Part shown: piece by piece, positions 7,584 through 38,271 of the stretch
How the letters are laid out: every line of letters begins with the position of its first letter
How positions within the stretch are numbered: the stretch's first letter is position 1
From: Mariprofundaceae bacterium
GTDB lineage: Bacteria; Pseudomonadota; Zetaproteobacteria; Mariprofundales; Mariprofundaceae
Reading direction: 5' to 3'
NCBI GenBank assembly: GCA_030950925.1
Contig: JAUZQO010000051.1
Location: 1-39,385, forward strand
DNA: 39,385 bases
Notes under the pieces: model-generated
What the model was told of the DNA's origin: nothing
The model's database searches: none
What the model saw: only the letters and a program-made list of their open reading frames with translations
Position numbers and translations under genes: made by a program

Positions 7584-8164
7584 TAAGCAGCACCTCGACT
7601 ACCAAGTTTCACCGCAGGCGTACCTTCTGCACACAGTGGGCAAGCATCCGCAGCAAAGGTTTCAACATTCAATGAAATAGCCGTTGCATGGGGTACATCA
7701 AAACGTCCTTTAGAATTCGGTGCGCGGTCGACCACAGCTACAACTGATGTTGGTATACCACCATGTTCACGTATTACAGCCATACATTCACACACGGATC
7801 CACCTGTGGTAATCACATCTTCGACCACCAAAATCTTCGTGCCTTGAGGAATAGAGAAGCCACGGCGCATTTGCATGACCCCCTCTTTGCGTTCCGTAAA
7901 AATAAATGGTTTTTTGAGTTGGCGCGCCACTTCTTGACCCACCACCAAACCACCAATGGCTGGTGCAACCACCATATCAAAATCATTGGGATTGATTTTC
8001 TCAATTAAGGCTTGAGCCAATTGTCCTGCATTATCCATTGACATCAACACCAATGCTGATTGTAAATAACGCGCCGAGTGGCGACCACTGGACAGTATGA
8101 AATGTCCATTCAGCAATGCACCCGCATCCTCATACATATCTAAGATATTTTGTTCATTCATCAT
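7583..8164 (-). CDS. pyrE: Orotate phosphoribosyltransferase
   Basis: PyrE converts orotate and PRPP to orotidine 5'-phosphate in pyrimidine synthesis. The PRPP loop ILVVEDVITTGGSV lies at about residues 111-124, and the catalytic-loop region FTERKEGVMQMRRGF precedes it. The C-terminus carries a CPLC motif and KLGSRG, typical of the longer bacterial OPRT branch. AAAGGAT seven bases upstream supports the first of two adjacent ATG codons. It is the first gene of the minus-strand run towards mutY and is divergent from glnA. Confidence 0.95.
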   Translation of the reverse strand: MMNEQNILDMYEDAGALLNGHFILSSGRHSARYLQSALVLMSMDNAGQLAQALIEKINPNDFDMVVAPAIGGLVVGQEVARQLKKPFIFTERKEGVMQMRRGFSIPQGTKILVVEDVITTGGSVCECMAVIREHGGIPTSVVAVVDRAPNSKGRFDVPHATAISLNVETFAADACPLCAEGTPAVKLGSRGAA

Positions 8165-21157: not shown

Positions 21158-21956
21158 TCTTTTTTCTCTCCATATTTTGCCTTGGGCAACTTTTTATTCA
21201 CATTCTTCATGACATGCAAAGAAAGTTCAGCATGAATGATACCTTCACCTTCTTCTTGAGCCGCCAATATCTTACCCCAAGGGTCAACGATCATACTATG
21301 TCCATAAGTACGGCGATCATCACCATGCTCGCACAACCTGTGCAGAAGCCAATACATAACACTGGTTTTCAATCGCTCTTGCTCGTAACAATATTTCCCA
21401 ATGGGCTTGACCTGTTTCCAATGTAAAAGCGGATGGTACAGTCAAAATATTACATCCTTGTGCAGCATAAAAATGATAAAGCAGAGGGAAACGAAGTCAT
21501 AACAAATCGATAAACCCACATGCCAATCATCATTCAAATGAAATATGCTTGGCTTTTTACCTGCTTGGCAATCATCCGATTCTTTCCAAGATTCATGCGT
21601 CAATACGGCTTCAAACAAATGGATTTTATCATAATAACGACATATTTCACCCTGTGGATTGATGACCAAACTACGGTTAAAAAGTTTTTCATGAGAACTG
21701 GATTTCCAAAGCACTGAACCTGCCACAATCCATACTTGGTATTGTTTGGCACATTCACCCAAAAAATACTTGATAACACTGGCTGAGTCTGCTGTGAACA
21801 ACGATATATCTTTACCAATCCATGCAAAGTTTTCAGGTAATACGACCAACTGACTTTTAAACGCTGTTGCGCGACGAATACGATGCGATGCCACACTTAA
21901 ATTTTGTGCCAATGAATTTGTTGATGTCATTTGTACACACGCAATGTTTCAGACAT
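21154..21956 (-). pseudogene. Decayed nitrilase-superfamily amidase (carbon-nitrogen hydrolase), three lesions
   Basis: Read across frames, this encodes a Nit/omega-amidase-like enzyme. The catalytic triad is still recognisable: Glu in VVLPENFAWIG, Lys in DKIHLFE and Cys in SICYD. The start is ATG 21956, after GGAGG and directly behind the protease stop. That frame (MSETLRV) breaks after seven codons, and homology resumes as QMTSTNSLAQ in another frame from 21930, consistent with loss of about 7 bases. A one-base loss lies at the ICYD-LRFP junction (about 21493). The next segment (ILTVPSAFTLETGQAHW, LLRARAIENQCYVLASAQV) is in a shifted frame until a one-base gain near 21340 restores it to GEHGDDRRTYGHSMIVDPWG. 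Three separate lesions make sequencing error unlikely for all of them. Confidence 0.85.
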
Positions 21957-25302: not shown

Positions 25303-25935
25303 ATGTATTTTGCTATTGCCACCCATATTTTTGTCCCCAATCCTGAACAAAGCGCAAGCTTTCTTGGTGATTGTTTGGGCTTTCAGACACAATACAAAGA
25401 CGGCTACGGTTGGTGTGCTGAAAATGGTACGGTGAGTTTACTGATTCACGCCACAGAGCAAGTACAAGCCACGCTTGAAGTACAATGCAATCATATTGAA
25501 CAAGATACCCAAGCTTTGTTAAAACATGATGGAATTCATGCTTTGAGTGATATAGAGCAATGCGATCATCGTTTGCAACAACGCTTTCTTAGTGATTGTG
25601 GTATCACCTTGATTCTATCTCAAATTCTTACCGAAGATGATTTGAATGAATTGCCTGATTTACCCACATCATTGGCTTGGGATGAAAAGACCATGCAACA
25701 AGTCCAACGTATTTTACGCATTGTACCGCTTGATTTCCGTGCCAAAGCACGCCAGCGGGTGACAGAGCGAGCCGAATATTTAGCTGTGGTGGGAGGGTAT
25801 TTGATGGTCAATGAGGCTTATGCTATGCGTGCCTTGGTGGATATAACACTGAAATTTCAACACCCGACCCTGTATCAAGCCATGCAAGATGAAGGTATTG
25901 CACCTGAGGCTTATGAGTTACCATGTTCCCACTAA
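25303..25935 (+). CDS. Glyoxalase-like (VOC) domain fused to PCP_red domain
   Basis: The N-terminal half (residues 1 to about 90) looks like a VOC/glyoxalase half-domain: THIFVPNPEQSASFLGDCLGF with later WCAENGTVSLLIHA. The C-terminal part (about 126-190: LAWDEKTMQQVQRILRIVP, then RQRVTERAEYLAVVGGYLM, VNEAYAMRALVDI) matches PCP_red. This small helical domain is found at the end of light-independent protochlorophyllide reductase BchB and in some proteins of non-photosynthetic bacteria. The fusion is unusual. I chose ATG 25303 because AGAGG lies ten bases upstream and the VOC strand begins there; earlier ATGs at 25243 and 25279 are possible. The stop overlaps the kinase gene by 13 bp. Function unknown. 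Confidence 0.65.
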   Translation: MYFAIATHIFVPNPEQSASFLGDCLGFQTQYKDGYGWCAENGTVSLLIHATEQVQATLEVQCNHIEQDTQALLKHDGIHALSDIEQCDHRLQQRFLSDCGITLILSQILTEDDLNELPDLPTSLAWDEKTMQQVQRILRIVPLDFRAKARQRVTERAEYLAVVGGYLMVNEAYAMRALVDITLKFQHPTLYQAMQDEGIAPEAYELPCSH

Positions 25936-27455
25936 TTCAACGCACCTACCGCCTGATTCGCACGGCTTGGGCGATCAAAGCCTTACGACAAGCCGATAAT
26001 GATGATGTTAAACAACAAGCCCGATACGCTTTGAGCGATATTTTGGCTGGCTCACGCGGCTTACCCATGAAGGTGGGGCAAGTCTTGGCGGGTATGGGTG
26101 ATGAATCCGAATATGCAATATTAACCCAATCGGTTGAGCCTTGGTCGCTGGAAAAAATGTTGCCTGTGTTAGAGAAAGCATGGGGGAAACCAGTGTTGAT
26201 GATGTTGGAAAGCATGGAAGAAAGTCAAGCTGCGGCATCTTTGGGACAAGTCCATCGCGCCAAGCTCAATGTCCGTGAAACCGTAGCTATTAAAATTCAA
26301 TACCCTGATATTGCCAAAGCCATGCAAGCTGAAATGACACTCGCTGGTTTGATGCCTGCCGCAGGGCCTGCCAAAACATGGGGCTTTGATATGCAGGCCT
26401 ATAAGCAGACATTAAAGCAGAATATCCATGAAGAACTGGATTATTTGCATGAAATGAAGCAACAAATGCTTTTTTCAGGTTCTGTCCATGTGCAAGGCCT
26501 GCATGTTCCGAGCACTTACCCTTTGTTATGCCGTAAAAATATCTTGGTACAAAGTTGGGCAGAGGGTGTACGGCTTTCGGAAGTTGCCAAGTGGGCCTTG
26601 CCACAACGCTTGTTTGTGGCGCGAACCTTGATGCAAACCATGTTTCAAAGCCTATTTCAAGCAGGCTTGGTGCATGGCGATCCTCACCCTGGTAATATGT
26701 TATTCAGTGATGATATAAAAGAACCACAAACCACATTGTTGGATTTTGGTTGCATGATTCACGTCGATGAGATGCCGCGCTTGGCATTGCTCAATATGAT
26801 TTTGGTGGCACGCGGTGATCGACATATCAACCTTTTATCTCTGTTTGCTTCCATGGGCTTTGATGAACATAAATTGCAATATATTGAAGCCAAGCTTCCC
26901 ACCTTGATTCAATTGCTATGCCGCCCCTTTATTGAGGAACGCGCCTTTGATGTCGAACAGTGGGATTTAAGCGCATCTGTTGAGTTATTGCTCGGTGATG
27001 ATAAGTGGTGGTTTCGTTCGGCCGCCCCTGCTAATTTGTTTTTGATTATCCGTATTTTTCAAGGCTTGGTGAGCCAACTTTCTTTATTGGATGTCAAACT
27101 TCCGTGGTTTCCCTTGCTCCAACAAGGCTTAAAAAAATCCACATGGGAACAAGCCAAGCACTGGATCCCCGAGGGTATTGATTTGCCTAAACCTCCAGAG
27201 ATTCAAGGCTCTGCAACACAGTTATTCATTTGCATCAAACCTCACGGAAAAAATGACATCAACATCACACTAACGGCTATCAGTGCCTTGGATCTTGAGA
27301 ACTTAATGCCTGAAAATATTGCCTCAGAAATGCGTGATGCAGGTATCAACTTACACAATATAAGAGAGCAACTATTAAAGGATGGCTTAGAGCCTCAAAC
27401 ACTTCTGGATTTGGATATGCCTTCCTATCATTGCCATATTGCACTGCAATTGTAA
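25923..27455 (+). CDS. ABC1/ADCK (UbiB-like) atypical kinase
   Basis: This 510-aa member of the ABC1 atypical kinase family carries the KxGQ motif (LPMKVGQVLAGM), the Ala-rich loop (AAASLGQVH), the ATP-binding Lys (VAIKIQYPDI), the catalytic HGDPHPGNM and the metal-binding LLDFG. Relatives such as UbiB and Coq8 support ubiquinone synthesis or lipid handling, probably as ATPases. This one lacks an obvious C-terminal membrane hairpin, and no ubi gene is adjacent, so I do not name it ubiB. Its coupling to the VOC-PCP_red gene (13-bp overlap) suggests a joint role, which is inference. Confidence 0.85.
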   Translation: MFPLIQRTYRLIRTAWAIKALRQADNDDVKQQARYALSDILAGSRGLPMKVGQVLAGMGDESEYAILTQSVEPWSLEKMLPVLEKAWGKPVLMMLESMEESQAAASLGQVHRAKLNVRETVAIKIQYPDIAKAMQAEMTLAGLMPAAGPAKTWGFDMQAYKQTLKQNIHEELDYLHEMKQQMLFSGSVHVQGLHVPSTYPLLCRKNILVQSWAEGVRLSEVAKWALPQRLFVARTLMQTMFQSLFQAGLVHGDPHPGNMLFSDDIKEPQTTLLDFGCMIHVDEMPRLALLNMILVARGDRHINLLSLFASMGFDEHKLQYIEAKLPTLIQLLCRPFIEERAFDVEQWDLSASVELLLGDDKWWFRSAAPANLFLIIRIFQGLVSQLSLLDVKLPWFPLLQQGLKKSTWEQAKHWIPEGIDLPKPPEIQGSATQLFICIKPHGKNDINITLTAISALDLENLMPENIASEMRDAGINLHNIREQLLKDGLEPQTLLDLDMPSYHCHIALQL

Positions 27456-27490
27456 TCTATTTTACAGTTGTTGAGTCACTTTAAGTAAGC

Positions 27491-27683
27491 TGTGGATAAG
27501 TCTGGGGATAAAGCTGTGAAAAGGTGCCATTTTGTCATATTCTAAGCCAATATGACACAATGATTAAAATTTAGGCATACTTATAATAATTTAAATAAAA
27601 CAATAACTTAAAAGGTTTATGCATGTGAACAGAAAAGAAAACAACAACTTACGTGCATTTAAAAGTAAAATTGTGGAAAAGAT
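27491..27683. promoter_or_regulatory. DnaA-box cluster next to an AT-rich tract (origin-like or DnaA-regulated region)
   Basis: The 300-bp gap 27456-27755 has no convincing gene. It holds TGTGGATAA (27491-27499), a perfect DnaA box on the minus strand, and TGGGGATAA (27503-27511), one mismatch away and 12 bp on in the same orientation. TGTGGAAAA at about 27675-27683 is a third, one-mismatch box. Between them lies an extremely AT-rich tract (about 27561-27610) resembling a DNA-unwinding element. The same gap contains a perfect inverted repeat (27533-27557). Confidence 0.5.
27533..27557. repeat. 9-bp perfect inverted repeat, candidate operator
   Basis: TGTCATATT (27533-27541) and AATATGACA (27549-27557) are perfect inverted repeats with a 7-bp spacer. 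No T run follows, so it is not an evident terminator. A perfect TATAAT (27582-27587) stands 25 bp downstream, so the repeat would overlap a -35 region and could bind a repressor. Confidence 0.45.
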
Positions 27684-27755
27684 TCATAAAAATGAATATG
27701 TCAAGACCTTTCTTTCCTTTATTATCATATCAACCAACCGTAAAAAGGACAATTC

Positions 27756-27980
27756 ATGGCAAAGCCAAAAGCTGCAACAAAAACAGCCCCCATTCAAGTT
27801 TGTCATGGTCAAAACTGCCGTGATATGGGCGGACTTTCCCTAACAGAGCAATGCCAACGCCTTGGCATAGGTTTTGAATCCATAAGCTGTCAAAGTCTGT
27901 GCAATCACGCACCCACGGCAAAGCTAAATAGTGTCGCAATTTTACGCGCAAATCTTGATAAAATATTGACGGTAAGATGA
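27756..27980 (+). CDS. Small thioredoxin-like [2Fe-2S] ferredoxin
   Basis: This 74-aa protein has five cysteines. Four are arranged C16-x4-C21 and C45-x3-C49 (VCHGQNC, then ISCQSLCNHAP), the ligand pattern of thioredoxin-like [2Fe-2S] ferredoxins and of the NuoE cluster domain. The C-terminal SVAILRANLDKIL fits the last strand and helix of that fold. AAAAAGGA upstream of ATG 27756 supports the start. The stop overlaps the next gene by ATGA. An electron-transfer role is expected; its partner is unknown. Confidence 0.75.
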   Translation: MAKPKAATKTAPIQVCHGQNCRDMGGLSLTEQCQRLGIGFESISCQSLCNHAPTAKLNSVAILRANLDKILTVR

Positions 27981-28687
27981 CACAAAAAGTTTTTTCTATT
28001 CTCTACTCATTTCGACGGTGCCCTTACGCCATCCGCGCACGTTTGGCATTACTGTATAGTGGTGTTGTCGTTGAATTGCGTGAAGTTACACTTAAAAATA
28101 AACCACCTGAACTTTTACAGGCTTCAAACAAAGCTTCTGTGCCTGTTTTGATCTGTGAAAATGGAAAAATACTGGATGAAAGTCACGATATTATGCTTTG
28201 GGCATGCCAGAAATCTGATCCAGAGGCTTGGTTAAATACAGCATCACACCCATTGATCCATGACAATGATCATGCATTCAAATGTGATTTGGATCATTAT
28301 AAATATGCCAATCGCTTCCCCGAATACACACAAACCCAATATCGCGACTCGTGCGGGATATTTTTGCAAGACATCGAACAGTCCTTGAAATATTCATCAT
28401 ACTTGGCTGGCAAACACCGTTCGTTTGTGGATATAGCAATCGCTCCCTTCATCCGTCAATTTAGCATGGTCGAGCCGACCTGGTTTGAAGGAAAATCAAG
28501 CGTTACGCCTTATCCCAACACTCTCAGATGGTTGCAATCCATCCTTCAAAGTGAACTTTTCAAGCTTTGCATGCAAAAATATCCAGCATGGCAAGCAGGT
28601 GATGAAGTGAGTATCTTCCCCAACCATTCAACTAGACCTCTGAACCATGCCATTTTTTGCCTTCATTCGCCTAAAAATGAACCATAG
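27977..28687 (+). CDS. Glutathione S-transferase/glutaredoxin-like protein
   Basis: The N-terminal thioredoxin-fold domain has SFRRCPYAIRARLAL, with a single Cys at the position used by glutaredoxin 2- and omega-type transferases. The cis-Pro segment SVPVLICENGKILDES binds glutathione in relatives. An all-helical C-terminal domain follows (SYLAGKHRSFVDIAIAPFIRQ, the N-capping box and hydrophobic staple region). The length of 236 aa fits the family. A thiol-transfer or dehydroascorbate-reductase-like activity is more likely than conjugation because of the active-site Cys. It is co-translated with the [2Fe-2S] ferredoxin gene. Confidence 0.85.
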   Translation: MTQKVFSILYSFRRCPYAIRARLALLYSGVVVELREVTLKNKPPELLQASNKASVPVLICENGKILDESHDIMLWACQKSDPEAWLNTASHPLIHDNDHAFKCDLDHYKYANRFPEYTQTQYRDSCGIFLQDIEQSLKYSSYLAGKHRSFVDIAIAPFIRQFSMVEPTWFEGKSSVTPYPNTLRWLQSILQSELFKLCMQKYPAWQAGDEVSIFPNHSTRPLNHAIFCLHSPKNEP

Positions 28688-28728
28688 TACAAAGGTCTAT
28701 GACAAAACAATCATTTGAAAGGTTCACT

Positions 28729-31452
28729 ATGCCCCACTTAGTTCTCATTGACGGTCCCAATTATGTATTTCGTGCATTTCATGCTGTCAAACACAATTTA
28801 TCCAACTCCAAAGGGCAGCCGACCAATGCAGTCTTTGGTTATGTTCAAATGCTGCGTGGTATTCTTAAAGATTTATCACCCACCCATGTTGCGGTGATTT
28901 TTGACCCGAAGGGCGGCACATTTCGCAATGAGATGTATGCTGAATACAAAGCGCATCGTCCACCCATGCCTGAAGATTTGGTGCCACAATGGCAAGCTGT
29001 GTTTGATGTCACCGATGCTTTTAATATTGCCCGCATATGCGTGGATCATTATGAAGCGGATGATGTGATTGCCACCCTTGCCAAACAAGCTGAAGCCAAA
29101 GATTGGGATGTGACCATTGTCTCCACCGATAAGGATTTGATGCAACTGGTATCTGCCAAGGTTTGGATGTTGGATACCATGCGTCATAAAGAATATGGTA
29201 TTGAGGAAGTCAAAGAAAAATGGGGTGTTGAACCCATTAAAGTCCATGATTTACTGGCTCTAGCAGGTGATTCTGCCGATAACATCCCTGGTGTTCCTGG
29301 CATTGGTCCGAAAACAGCATTGGATTTACTCAATACTTACGGTGATTTGGAAGGTGTTTTAGAACATGCTGCCGAGATTAAACAAAAGAAACGGCGCGAA
29401 AACCTGATTGAGTTTGCCGAAGATGCACGTTTATCCTATCGCTTGGTGGCCTTGGATATGAACACACCCGTGCCGCTTGGCTTGGATGATTTACAAGTGC
29501 AATCACCCAATCGTCCTGCCCTAGCCTCATGTTTCCAAGAACTGGAATTTCGACGTTTAACGGCGGAATTTAGTGATAGTGATCAAGAAGAACCCCCAAC
29601 TGCTGAAAAAATTACCGAAGCATCCATACCCAATCAAACACGCATCGATCACATCGTTGATGACGAAGCCAAGTTACACCAACTCATCCAACAACTTCGT
29701 GAATCCTCATTGTTTGCCATGGATACAGAAACCACATCATTGCATTGCCATGATGCTGATCTGGTGGGTTTATCCTTTGCCACGCAAGCAGGTGAAGGTT
29801 TTTATGTTCCTGTCGGTCATCGCTCTGATAATTTATTGGATACGACCCCCAAACAACTGCCTCGCGCGCAAGTTTTAGACGCACTTCGTCCTTTATTGGA
29901 AGATGCAACCCAAGCCAAGTGTGGTCATAATTTAAAATATGATGTGCAAGTGTTGCGTAAAGCAGGCGTTCACTTGCGTGGAATTGTCTATGATTCCATG
30001 TTGATGGCGTATATTGATGAAGCAGGCCAAGCGGCAAATATGGACAGTGTGGCTAAAAAATATTTAAATCATGATTGCATTGCTTTTTCTGATGTTGCAG
30101 GCAAAGGTGTGAAACAAATTACCTTTGATTTGGTGCCTTTGGATATTGCAGTACCATATGCTTGTGAAGATGCTGAAGTGACACTTCGTTTAACGCAAAC
30201 CCTGAAAGAGCGATTAAATACCCGTATCCAACGCCATGATGACATTGAATTGCCACTGGCTTTGGTGTTAGCCGATATGGAATGGATAGGGGCAAGTATT
30301 GATGCCACGCAATTGGCGCGACTCTCTGAAAAGTTTGGTGAACGTATTACATCTTTGGAAGCAGCCATTCATGAGGCAGCAGGTGAAGTCTTTAATATCA
30401 AATCACCCAAACAACTCGGCGTTTTATTGTTTGAAACATTGGGCTTGGAAGGTGGTAAAAAAACCAAATCAGGACAATGGGCAACAGGTCAATCGGTGTT
30501 GGAAAAACTCGCCGACCAACATGAGATACCCCGTTTGATTTTGGAAGTGCGCGGTTTATCTAAGCTTAAATCCACCTATACCGATACTTTGCCCAAATTG
30601 ATTCATGCGCAAACAGGGCGTATTCATACCTCTTATAACCAAGCGGTCACCACCACTGGTCGCTTATCTTCTTCTGAACCCAATTTACAAAATATCCCCA
30701 TTCGTACATTGGAAGGTCGGGAAATTCGCAAGGCCTTTGTAGCTCAAGAAGGATATAGTTTACTGGCTGCTGATTATTCACAAATTGAATTGCGTTTGAT
30801 GGCGCACTTCTCTCAAGATAGCAATTTGATGCAAGCGTTTGCAGACGGTCGTGATATTCATGCAGCTACGGCGGCAGCGATTCAACATGTGCCGATTGAA
30901 GAAGTCACAGGTGATATGCGTCGCTGTGCCAAAGCGGTCAACTTTGGTATTTTGTATGGCATGAGTGCATTTGGTCTTGCCAAACAACTCGATATTTCTC
31001 GCACGGAAGCCAAGACATTTATCGAAAGTTATTTTGAACAATTCCCAACCATTCAAATGTTTATGGATGAGACATTGGAAACGGCGCGTAGCCAAGGCTA
31101 TGTGGAAACATTATTGGGGCATCGCATGGTTGTGCCTGATATCAACAGTAGTAATGGTATGCGTAAAGCCTATGCCGAACGCACGGCTGTCAATGCGCCA
31201 CTCCAAGGTTCGGCAGCAGATATTATCAAAGTCGCGATGATTACGTTGCATGAACGCTTAAAACAAGAAGCACCTCAAGCCAAAATGATCTTACAAGTGC
31301 ATGATGAACTGATTGTTGAATGCCCTGATGCTATGCTGGAACAAGTGAGCAGCATCATGCGAGAGTGCATGCAAACTGCAGTAACACTCAATGTTCCATT
31401 GGATGTGGATATAGGTGTAGGTAAAAATTGGTTTGATGCTCATGCGTTATAA
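28729..31452 (+). CDS. polA: DNA polymerase I
   Basis: All three Pol I activities are represented. The 5'-3' exonuclease domain spans residues 1 to about 290 (LIDGPNYVFRAFHA, VDHYEADDVIATLA, STDKDLMQL, GDSADNIPGVPGIG). The 3'-5' proofreading domain has intact acidic residues (FAMDTETTSLH, D332 and E334). The polymerase domain has motif A AADYSQIELRLMAH, motif B RRCAKAVNFGILYGMSAFGL and motif C LQVHDELIVE. The start at 28729 has GAAAGG at a good distance; an upstream ATG (28699) has its ribosome site too close. The length of 907 aa is normal. Confidence 0.97.
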   Translation: MPHLVLIDGPNYVFRAFHAVKHNLSNSKGQPTNAVFGYVQMLRGILKDLSPTHVAVIFDPKGGTFRNEMYAEYKAHRPPMPEDLVPQWQAVFDVTDAFNIARICVDHYEADDVIATLAKQAEAKDWDVTIVSTDKDLMQLVSAKVWMLDTMRHKEYGIEEVKEKWGVEPIKVHDLLALAGDSADNIPGVPGIGPKTALDLLNTYGDLEGVLEHAAEIKQKKRRENLIEFAEDARLSYRLVALDMNTPVPLGLDDLQVQSPNRPALASCFQELEFRRLTAEFSDSDQEEPPTAEKITEASIPNQTRIDHIVDDEAKLHQLIQQLRESSLFAMDTETTSLHCHDADLVGLSFATQAGEGFYVPVGHRSDNLLDTTPKQLPRAQVLDALRPLLEDATQAKCGHNLKYDVQVLRKAGVHLRGIVYDSMLMAYIDEAGQAANMDSVAKKYLNHDCIAFSDVAGKGVKQITFDLVPLDIAVPYACEDAEVTLRLTQTLKERLNTRIQRHDDIELPLALVLADMEWIGASIDATQLARLSEKFGERITSLEAAIHEAAGEVFNIKSPKQLGVLLFETLGLEGGKKTKSGQWATGQSVLEKLADQHEIPRLILEVRGLSKLKSTYTDTLPKLIHAQTGRIHTSYNQAVTTTGRLSSSEPNLQNIPIRTLEGREIRKAFVAQEGYSLLAADYSQIELRLMAHFSQDSNLMQAFADGRDIHAATAAAIQHVPIEEVTGDMRRCAKAVNFGILYGMSAFGLAKQLDISRTEAKTFIESYFEQFPTIQMFMDETLETARSQGYVETLLGHRMVVPDINSSNGMRKAYAERTAVNAPLQGSAADIIKVAMITLHERLKQEAPQAKMILQVHDELIVECPDAMLEQVSSIMRECMQTAVTLNVPLDVDIGVGKNWFDAHAL

Positions 31453-31552
31453 ATTTGGTGAGTATGGAGGGAGAAATAGCAGCTCAATTTCGTCACTGAA
31501 TGCTAATATCAACATGAGTAAATAGCTCATCTTGAAGTAGGTTGCTCTAGAA

Positions 31553-32680
31553 TTAGAGCGTTGTGACCAGTAAATCTGAAAAACGATCAAATAAATAATC
31601 CGCATCATGAGGACCAGGGCTGGCTTCTGGATGGTACTGTACGGAGAAAACAGCCTTGTTTTTGACCTTTAAACCTTCCACAGTGCCATCAAACAAAGAA
31701 CGATGAGTGATTTCAACATTGTCAGGCATCATATCATCGGCCACGGCAAAACCATGGTTTTGGCTGGTGATTTCAATCTTACCAGTGGTTTCATCTTTGA
31801 CAGGATGGTTACCACCACGGTGTCCAAATTTCAACTTGAATGTTTTAAGCCCCAAAGCTTGGGATAACAATTGATGCCCCATGCAAATGCCAAAAATGGG
31901 TGTGTCACTATCAAGTAGCTCACGAATAGTTTCCACTGCATAGCCCACAGCCGATGGATCACCCGGTCCATTGGATAGAAAAATGCCATCAGGATTCATA
32001 GCTAAAATAGCTTGTGCAGATGTTTGGGCTGGAACAACCGATACTTTTAAGCCGCGATCAGCAAGTTTTCTGAAAATGTTACGTTTGCAACCAAAATCCA
32101 ATGCTACAATATGTTTGTTGAACGTGGGGGTATGATGTTTTGCTTCATCAAGAAGGTAGCTGCCTTGCTCCCATGTATAAGCTTCCTTGCAACTGACCTG
32201 TCCGACCAAATCAACGCCGACCAAGCCAGACCAAGCCCGTGCTTTGGCAACAGCTTCTGCTTCAGACATATCATCTGATGCAATCACCCCATGTTGTGCG
32301 CCATGGTCACGCAAATGACGCACCAATGCGCGTGTATCAATATCGGCAATACCCACAATATTTTGATGTTCAAGCCATGTTTCCAAGCTTTCAGTCGCGC
32401 GGTAGTTGGATGTTTTTCGAGATGGTGCGCGTACAACCAAGCCGCGCAAGGCAATTTTTTCAGATTCCATATCATCTACGTTGATTCCCACGTTACCGAT
32501 GTGAGGGTAAGTAAACGTCATGATTTGGTTGGTGTAAGAAGGATCGGTTAGAATTTCTTGATAACCTGTGAGTGATGTATTGAAACAAACTTCACCCACG
32601 GTGTTTCCGTGTTTTCCTAAAGCAATACCATGAAAAATACGCCCGTCTGCCAATGCTAAAATTGCTTGTTTTTCGCCCAT
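31553..32680 (-). CDS. carA: Carbamoyl-phosphate synthase small (glutaminase) subunit
   Basis: CarA hydrolyses glutamine and passes ammonia to CarB for carbamoyl phosphate synthesis, which feeds arginine and pyrimidine pathways. The N-terminal domain contains TGYQEILTDPSYTNQI. The class I amidotransferase domain has the nucleophile in FGICMGHQLLSQALG and the catalytic His in VQYHPEASPGP. The length of 375 aa is typical. carB is not in the window. It converges with polA, and its stop lies inside a 6-bp hairpin (31544-31559) without a T run. It is divergent from recA. Confidence 0.96.
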   Translation of the reverse strand: MGEKQAILALADGRIFHGIALGKHGNTVGEVCFNTSLTGYQEILTDPSYTNQIMTFTYPHIGNVGINVDDMESEKIALRGLVVRAPSRKTSNYRATESLETWLEHQNIVGIADIDTRALVRHLRDHGAQHGVIASDDMSEAEAVAKARAWSGLVGVDLVGQVSCKEAYTWEQGSYLLDEAKHHTPTFNKHIVALDFGCKRNIFRKLADRGLKVSVVPAQTSAQAILAMNPDGIFLSNGPGDPSAVGYAVETIRELLDSDTPIFGICMGHQLLSQALGLKTFKLKFGHRGGNHPVKDETTGKIEITSQNHGFAVADDMMPDNVEITHRSLFDGTVEGLKVKNKAVFSVQYHPEASPGPHDADYLFDRFSDLLVTTL

Positions 32681-36955: not shown

Positions 36956-37228
36956 ATGTCAAATTTAGGTGCATTGCAACTGAATATATCTCACCCAAAA
37001 GCAACGTTTTATTTAAATCAGAATATTACAATTCATACAGAAGGAAAGAAGCTTTCAAAACGTAAAACCTTTAAATACCTCTATAAACAAGAAAATGAAT
37101 TTTCACAAGAAGATAGCGATGAATTAGAAGCTACAGAAGGTGTTGTGGTTGAAGATAAGAACATACCTAACCCCAATAATGAAGCCAATCAAATAGCCAT
37201 TAAGCGCTTACTTTTCAAAGCAAATTAA
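36956..37228 (+). CDS. Hypothetical small acidic protein upstream of the methyltransferase
   Basis: I do not recognise this 90-aa protein. It begins with a beta-rich, neutral part (LGALQLNISHPKATFYLNQN), has a Lys-rich middle and an acidic stretch (FSQEDSDELEATEG), then a polar tail. There is no membrane segment, helix-turn-helix or cysteine. GGAG stands seven bases before the ATG, so it is likely translated, and the stop overlaps the methyltransferase start (TAATG). Base composition is about 30% G+C over 36961-37140 by hand count, against about 47% in a nearby 60-base stretch of alaS (36781-36840). This marks it as part of a foreign insert. It may be a restriction-modification accessory or controller protein, which is a guess from position. 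Confidence 0.6.
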   Translation: MSNLGALQLNISHPKATFYLNQNITIHTEGKKLSKRKTFKYLYKQENEFSQEDSDELEATEGVVVEDKNIPNPNNEANQIAIKRLLFKAN

Positions 37229-38271
37229 TGAATATTATTTCATTATTTTCAGGTGCAGGAGGGCTTGACCTTGGCTTTGAAAAAGCAGGCTTCCAAACAG
37301 TTTGGGCCAATGAATACGACAAGGATATTTGGGAAACCTACGAAAAAAACTTTCCTCATGTAGAGCTTAACCGTAAATCAATTCGTGATGTAGCGTCATA
37401 CGAAATACCCGATTGCGACGGTATTATTGGTGGACCTCCTTGTCAAAGTTGGAGTGAAGCAGGGACACTGCGGGGGATTAAGGATAAACGAGGACAGCTT
37501 TTTTATGAATTTATTCGCATTTTAAGGGACAAACAGCCTAAGTTTTTTGTTGCAGAAAATGTATCGGGAATGCTGGCATCAAGGCATACGAATGCTATGG
37601 AATCTATTCAAAAATTATTTAAAGAAAGTGGGTATAATCTATCATTTACTATGCTGAACGCCTCGGATTATTGGGTGCCACAAGATAGAAAGAGGGTGTT
37701 TTTTATTGGTATTCGCGAGGATTTGGATAAAATATTTGAATTTCCAACCCCTTTCAAACAAAAGAGATGTTTAAAAGATATTATTTATAATATAAGAGGT
37801 TCTGCACTTGCCGCTAAAGATAAAAACCATAGTAATGGCGATGATTGTGCTTTGCCCAACCATGAATATTTAACTGGCGGGTTCTCAAGCATATACATGT
37901 CGCGTAACCGTGTCCGTGCTTGGGATGAACAATCGTTTACAATTCAAGCAGGTGGTCGCCATGCACCGATTCACCCTCAAGCACCAAAAATGGTCTTTAT
38001 CGAACAAAATATTCGTGTATTTGTTCCAGGGAAAGAAAAATTATACCGTCGTTTGAGTGTTCGTGAGTGTGCTAGAATTCAAACATTTCCCGATACACAT
38101 GCGTTTTATTATAAAAGTGTATTGACTGGGTATAAAATGGTGGGTAATGCAGTTCCCGCTACATTGGCATATTTTATTGCGAAAAAACTATATGCTGACT
38201 TGAATCCAGACATGTCATGTTATATTCATGAGCCAGAATCTCAGTTTTATGAAAAACTCATACCAGCTTAA
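37228..38271 (+). CDS. DNA (cytosine-5) methyltransferase, M.HaeIII-like
   Basis: This 347-aa C5-cytosine methyltransferase has all key motifs: SAM-binding FSGAGGLDLGFEKAGF, catalytic Cys in GGPPCQSWSEAG (C72), FFVAENVSGML, QDRKRVFFIG, and the C-terminal GYKMVGNAVPATLAYFIA. The sequence closely follows M.HaeIII as I remember it, including the target-recognition stretch (NHEYLTGGFSSIYMSRNRVR, then AGGRHAPIHPQAP). The likely target is therefore GGCC, inferred and not proven. A type II partner endonuclease would be expected, but no intact one is beside it. It is co-translated with the small upstream protein and is AT-richer than its neighbours, which fits horizontal acquisition. Confidence 0.92.
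   Translation: MNIISLFSGAGGLDLGFEKAGFQTVWANEYDKDIWETYEKNFPHVELNRKSIRDVASYEIPDCDGIIGGPPCQSWSEAGTLRGIKDKRGQLFYEFIRILRDKQPKFFVAENVSGMLASRHTNAMESIQKLFKESGYNLSFTMLNASDYWVPQDRKRVFFIGIREDLDKIFEFPTPFKQKRCLKDIIYNIRGSALAAKDKNHSNGDDCALPNHEYLTGGFSSIYMSRNRVRAWDEQSFTIQAGGRHAPIHPQAPKMVFIEQNIRVFVPGKEKLYRRLSVRECARIQTFPDTHAFYYKSVLTGYKMVGNAVPATLAYFIAKKLYADLNPDMSCYIHEPESQFYEKLIPA

Follow-up and report, generated by a model that had tools for sequence, protein, structure and literature searches.

Does the 300-bp gap at positions 27456–27755 of a 39,385-nt stretch of Mariprofundaceae DNA (hereafter the window), which carries DnaA boxes, hold a replication origin, or could DnaA bound there serve some other purpose? 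This window corresponds to contig C47 of a zetaproteobacterial MAG (G000; 1.97 Mb in 75 contigs). Among named relatives, the zetaproteobacterial MAG NORP31 is the nearest, followed by a Mariprofundaceae MAG; the sister species of G000 is genome G005. The gap lies between an ABC1/UbiB-like kinase gene (25923–27455, + strand) and a codirectional operon that includes polA, and it is the largest of the gaps separating the main ORFs of the window. It contains a perfect DnaA box, TGTGGATAA (27491–27499), and two boxes with one mismatch each, TGGGGATAA (27503–27511) and TGTGGAAAA (27672–27680), all on the + strand, the orientation of polA. A sequence-only reading had reported both the three boxes and the size of the gap, and on these points it was accurate. 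Boxes 1 and 2 are in tandem with a spacer of 3 bp; on the minus strand box 1 reads TTATCCACA and the two together TTATCCCCAgacTTATCCACA, and box 2 departs from the consensus within the conserved CACA part (TTATCCCCA). A third unit of this 12-bp array, TGTGAAAAG (27515–27523, + strand), is a direct repeat with 3 mismatches and is doubtful. The lone box TGTGGAAAA follows 160 bp after the pair; it is kept in the sister and is probably incidental.

The gap had been put forward as a candidate replication origin, with the remark that no dnaA or dnaN gene is close. The remark was correct, since both genes lie on another contig, C14 (dnaN, L041:6543-7643; dnaA, L041:7897-9681). In C14 coordinates, the gap between them holds four perfect boxes (27696, 27768, 27779, 27835) and one with a single mismatch (27880), and includes the perfect double box TTATCCACAtcTTATCCACA; in the sister, the corresponding gap has three perfect boxes and two with one mismatch. 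A search for a better DnaA-box cluster elsewhere, proposed as a check on the origin, ended at the C14 dnaA–dnaN gap, with four perfect boxes against one in the window gap. Like a bacterial oriC in a dnaA–dnaN gap, the window gap has DnaA boxes adjoining an AT-rich tract, which is a point in favor of an origin. Unlike such an oriC, it has no dnaA or dnaN nearby and offers two good boxes and a stray one where such an origin has at least four perfect ones. The oriC of this chromosome is the dnaA–dnaN gap on C14, not the window gap. No paper on zetaproteobacterial oriC turned up in the literature collection searched.

GC skew was analyzed in five contigs of G000 (one in part), two contigs of the sister and samples of G018, a complete family member whose sequence starts at dnaA. 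In G018 the ten 20-kb samples between 1 and 1,030 kb all had positive skew, and from 1,125 kb onward every sample up to the end was negative; because the positive half follows the dnaA start and the negative half runs to the end, the skew switches at dnaA, and polA, at 330 kb, lies inside the positive half and thus within one replichore. The window itself has an origin-like look, GC3 skew by gene strand being negative to the left of the gap and positive to its right (−0.147 and +0.159 when the gene strands are averaged). The skew of the same genome around dnaA on C14 is only mildly asymmetric (0.00 on the left, +0.15 on the right), which also favors an origin in the window and is a weak point of our origin call. 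However, once corrected for a mean coding effect of 0.161, the window gave 10-kb bins of −0.14, −0.26, −0.10 and +0.03, so that the right side is near zero. In the sister contig, the bins (+0.25, +0.11, +0.15, +0.14 and 0.00) keep one sign across the same gap (27.2–27.5 kb), and within contig C75, which has no dnaA, the skew changes sign for 20 kb. A GC-skew minimum at the gap, the signature expected of an origin, was accordingly not found: the sister has no switch there, and the complete relative switches at dnaA, 330 kb away from polA. Faced with a four-perfect-box oriC on C14, conserved in the sister, and with the skew switch at dnaA in the complete relative, the claim that 27456–27755 is the chromosomal origin, or a second one, is very improbable.

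The window genes are scattered over G018, with polA at 330 kb, trmB at 673 kb, carA at 680 kb, recA–recX–alaS at 895 kb and glnA near 1,585 kb, and the window is a patchwork. The sister contig keeps the kinase gene, the gap and polA, without carA after polA. The polA–carA junction (31452–31553) is absent from the sister, and it is around here that GC3 skew changes; the last stretch of the window lies past polA, where the neighbors in the sister are different. This junction is the best explanation of the skew change in the window. The tempting origin call is thus clearly refuted, and the case illustrates that box clusters and a local skew change in a single contig can mislead when the genome is rearranged.

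In E. coli, a double DnaA box is defined as two boxes in tandem with a spacer of 2 or 3 bp, and ChIP-seq revealed that DnaA prefers boxes 2 or 3 bp apart, such a pair being present in 15 of the 16 bound regions, that of polA included (PMC11317965). By its letters, 27491–27511 fits this definition (TTATCCCCA-gac-TTATCCACA). The sequence-only reading had missed its double-box nature, as well as the weak third unit at 27515 and the 14-bp inverted repeat at 27528–27562. When all 52 perfect boxes of the genome were scored for a second box spaced 2 or 3 bp away, oriC ranked first (0 mismatches in total) and 27491–27511 second (1 mismatch), making the latter the best double box outside oriC; the next four pairs had 2 mismatches each, two of them in oriC and two within ORFs. 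Only eight of these 52 lie outside ORFs, namely the four of oriC, one upstream of gyrB, the one at 27491 and two lone boxes.

The main rival explanation is that two DnaA-box-like 9-mers came together by chance in an AT-rich gap and have no function. To estimate how often this happens, the 9-mer was permuted 200 times and pairs with no more than one mismatch over both boxes were counted in the 427 kb examined. The permuted 9-mers gave a mean of 0.01 pairs, against 2 observed (oriC and 27491–27511), and scaling to 1.97 Mb gives an expectation of ~0.05 such pairs per genome, which argues against chance. What speaks for it is that loose clusters of three boxes (≤1 mismatch) are expected about four times genome-wide, by our own estimate from 983 sites, and two further ones were found, both within genes (L139 and L141). 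Besides oriC and the window gap, the sole other intergenic cluster around a perfect box was upstream of gyrB (L042:1480-1575, corresponding to G000 C14:41480-41575), where two boxes with one mismatch each accompany a perfect one; one of the two lies 12 bp away and is inverted.

The rest of the gap was also inspected. An AT-rich tract is indeed present, and its earlier description as having almost no G or C was overstated, since 27563–27660 is 22% G+C. This tract, with a TATAAT-like stretch near 27589, is the presumed promoter or leader region. Other, equally AT-rich 100-bp stretches occur in the window (22 G+C at 27529, 21 at 8141, 24 at 1142 and at 37003). Between the box pair and the tract sits an inverted repeat (27528–27562) with 14-nt arms (13 of 14 paired), a 7-nt loop and a perfect 9-bp core, TGTCATATT/AATATGACA; the core, TGTCATATT-N7-AATATGACA, is unchanged in the sister. 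Folded as RNA, it has a free energy of −11 kcal/mol (z −3.85), with no T-run downstream, and it may be a second operator or a leader hairpin. A half-site related to it was seen at 27694–27704. A regulon for the inverted repeat was rejected, as no second copy with ≤3 mismatches was found in the genome. An intrinsic terminator downstream of the kinase gene was not found, and searches for known RNA families in the gap gave chance matches only, far below gathering scores. A small ORF with an ATG at 27619, which is open for 46 codons in the sister and ends at the start of the next gene, shows no coding sign, because its 15 substitutions are split 3/6/6 over codon positions 1, 2 and 3.

Downstream of the gap, three genes follow each other tightly in the same direction. 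The first (27756–27980, + strand) encodes a small 74-aa protein with CxxxxC...CxxxC cysteines that matches thioredoxin-like [2Fe-2S] ferredoxins weakly (PF01257, with an E of 0.0043 that falls short of the cut-off). It overlaps by 4 bp with a gene for a GST-like protein (GST_N_3; 27977–28687, + strand), and polA, encoding DNA polymerase I (28699–31452, + strand), starts 11 bp past the latter. Elsewhere in the window, as judged by eye, a nitrilase-like ORF of 162 aa (21442–21930) is seemingly short at its C-terminus and possibly a broken gene, and a DNA cytosine methyltransferase-like gene (37228–38271) lies in a lower-G+C stretch (~36–38%) and was perhaps acquired. The box pair is located ~245 bp before the operon's first gene, ~80 bp upstream of a plausible −10 and 1.2 kb upstream of polA, with two genes between. 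Our preferred reading, to which we give roughly even odds (about 0.5), is that 27491–27511 is a DnaA regulatory double box for the operon ending in polA. By analogy with E. coli, a DnaA dimer could occupy the perfect and the weak tandem box; the promoter would lie in the AT-rich part of the gap, at the TATAAT-like stretch, and bound DnaA would raise or lower transcription of the operon. In this way the supply of repair polymerase would be tied to replication initiation.

Conservation bears on this reading in two ways. In the sister, the gap is kept at 93% identity and the box pair is unchanged. Over the 123 bp ending at 27523 the two species do not differ, with patchy divergence around this stretch, and the boxes lie in a 166-bp run identical to the sister that begins inside the kinase gene. 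Further runs identical to the sister, of 368 and 145 bp, are found in the kinase gene; the former (26606–26973) lies amid stretches that differ by ~10% and is probably due to recent recombination between the lineages. Because identical runs extend into the coding sequence of the kinase gene, sister identity was not counted as strong evidence of selection, and we rejected it as proof; the identity of the pair may reflect recombination rather than selection, a point against regulation and in favor of chance. Among 30 family genomes, a double box ahead of polA or of its operon was found in the window species and its sister only (2 of 30); it was absent from all 28 other genomes scanned, whereas the E. 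coli positive control was found, and the pair is therefore a two-species trait. No homologue of the gap was found elsewhere in the genus beyond the sister. Other members of the genus either have different genes ahead of the [2Fe-2S]-like gene or, in the case of G007 and G010 (the next-closest species), have a polA without the two small genes within 1.5 kb upstream. In a locus of G010 (L018:350-620, on its contig C47), three near-identical ~70-bp units starting with AAAAATAGGGTCAGGC were observed ahead of a [2Fe-2S]-like gene. Loss of the boxes in close relatives had been named as a finding that would refute the proposal, and here the outcome is mixed, the boxes being kept in one sister and missing from every other relative. 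The proposal that DnaA regulates the polA operon from this site likewise holds in part: the anatomy fits and the pair is the best double box of the genome outside oriC, but it is missing beyond the sister. If the site is regulatory, its wiring was probably gained in the common ancestor with the sister, through a rearrangement that placed the gap before the operon. The narrow distribution speaks for a chance pair, and we regard that explanation as possible, though short of probable.

The pair could also serve, in the manner of datA or DARS, to titrate DnaA or to reactivate it by nucleotide exchange, with no role in transcription. The E. coli datA and DARS loci also carry double boxes (PMC11317965), and the window site resembles them in being an intergenic double DnaA box, here in AT-rich surroundings. 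It differs from them in having far fewer boxes, only two good ones being close together. Besides such pairs, datA and DARS depend on additional boxes and on IHF/Fis sites. The place before an operon suits regulation equally well. We consider a titration or exchange site unlikely.

Regulation of the operon, the reading we prefer, has its closest parallel at polA of E. coli. ChIP-seq places DnaA on the region upstream of this gene, and the gene is counted among the positively regulated DnaA targets (PMC11317965); stimulation of polA by DnaA is attributed to Quinones et al. 1997, as cited in PMC12371093. In E. coli MG1655, the same scan upstream of polA gave TTATGCACAaagTTATCCACA at −128/−116. 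Both this site and the window pair lie upstream of polA and consist of a weak box followed in tandem by a perfect one on the same strand, with 3 bp between them, and each has one mismatch in total. That the pair lies upstream of the same gene as a known double box is a further argument against chance. The two sites also differ: TTATCCACA reads along polA ~120 bp from its start in E. coli, but against polA and 1.2 kb away in the window, and the weak box is TTATCCCCA in the window as opposed to TTATGCACA in E. coli. In addition, DnaA binding has been shown at the E. coli double box; at the window site it is predicted. The tight operon, the rank of the pair outside oriC, the scarcity of perfect boxes outside ORFs, the unchanged pair in the sister, the chance expectation of ~0.05 and the E. 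coli parallel speak for regulation; the opposite orientation, the distances of 1.2 kb to polA and ~80 bp to the plausible −10, the CACA mismatch and the absence from 28 relatives speak against it. We tentatively suggest that DnaA control of polA might have arisen independently in this zetaproteobacterial lineage, a rearrangement having brought in a double box of opposite orientation that converged on the wiring of E. coli. If DnaA does bind here, the coupling of polA supply to replication initiation would not be a peculiarity of E. coli but an arrangement at which bacteria arrive more than once.
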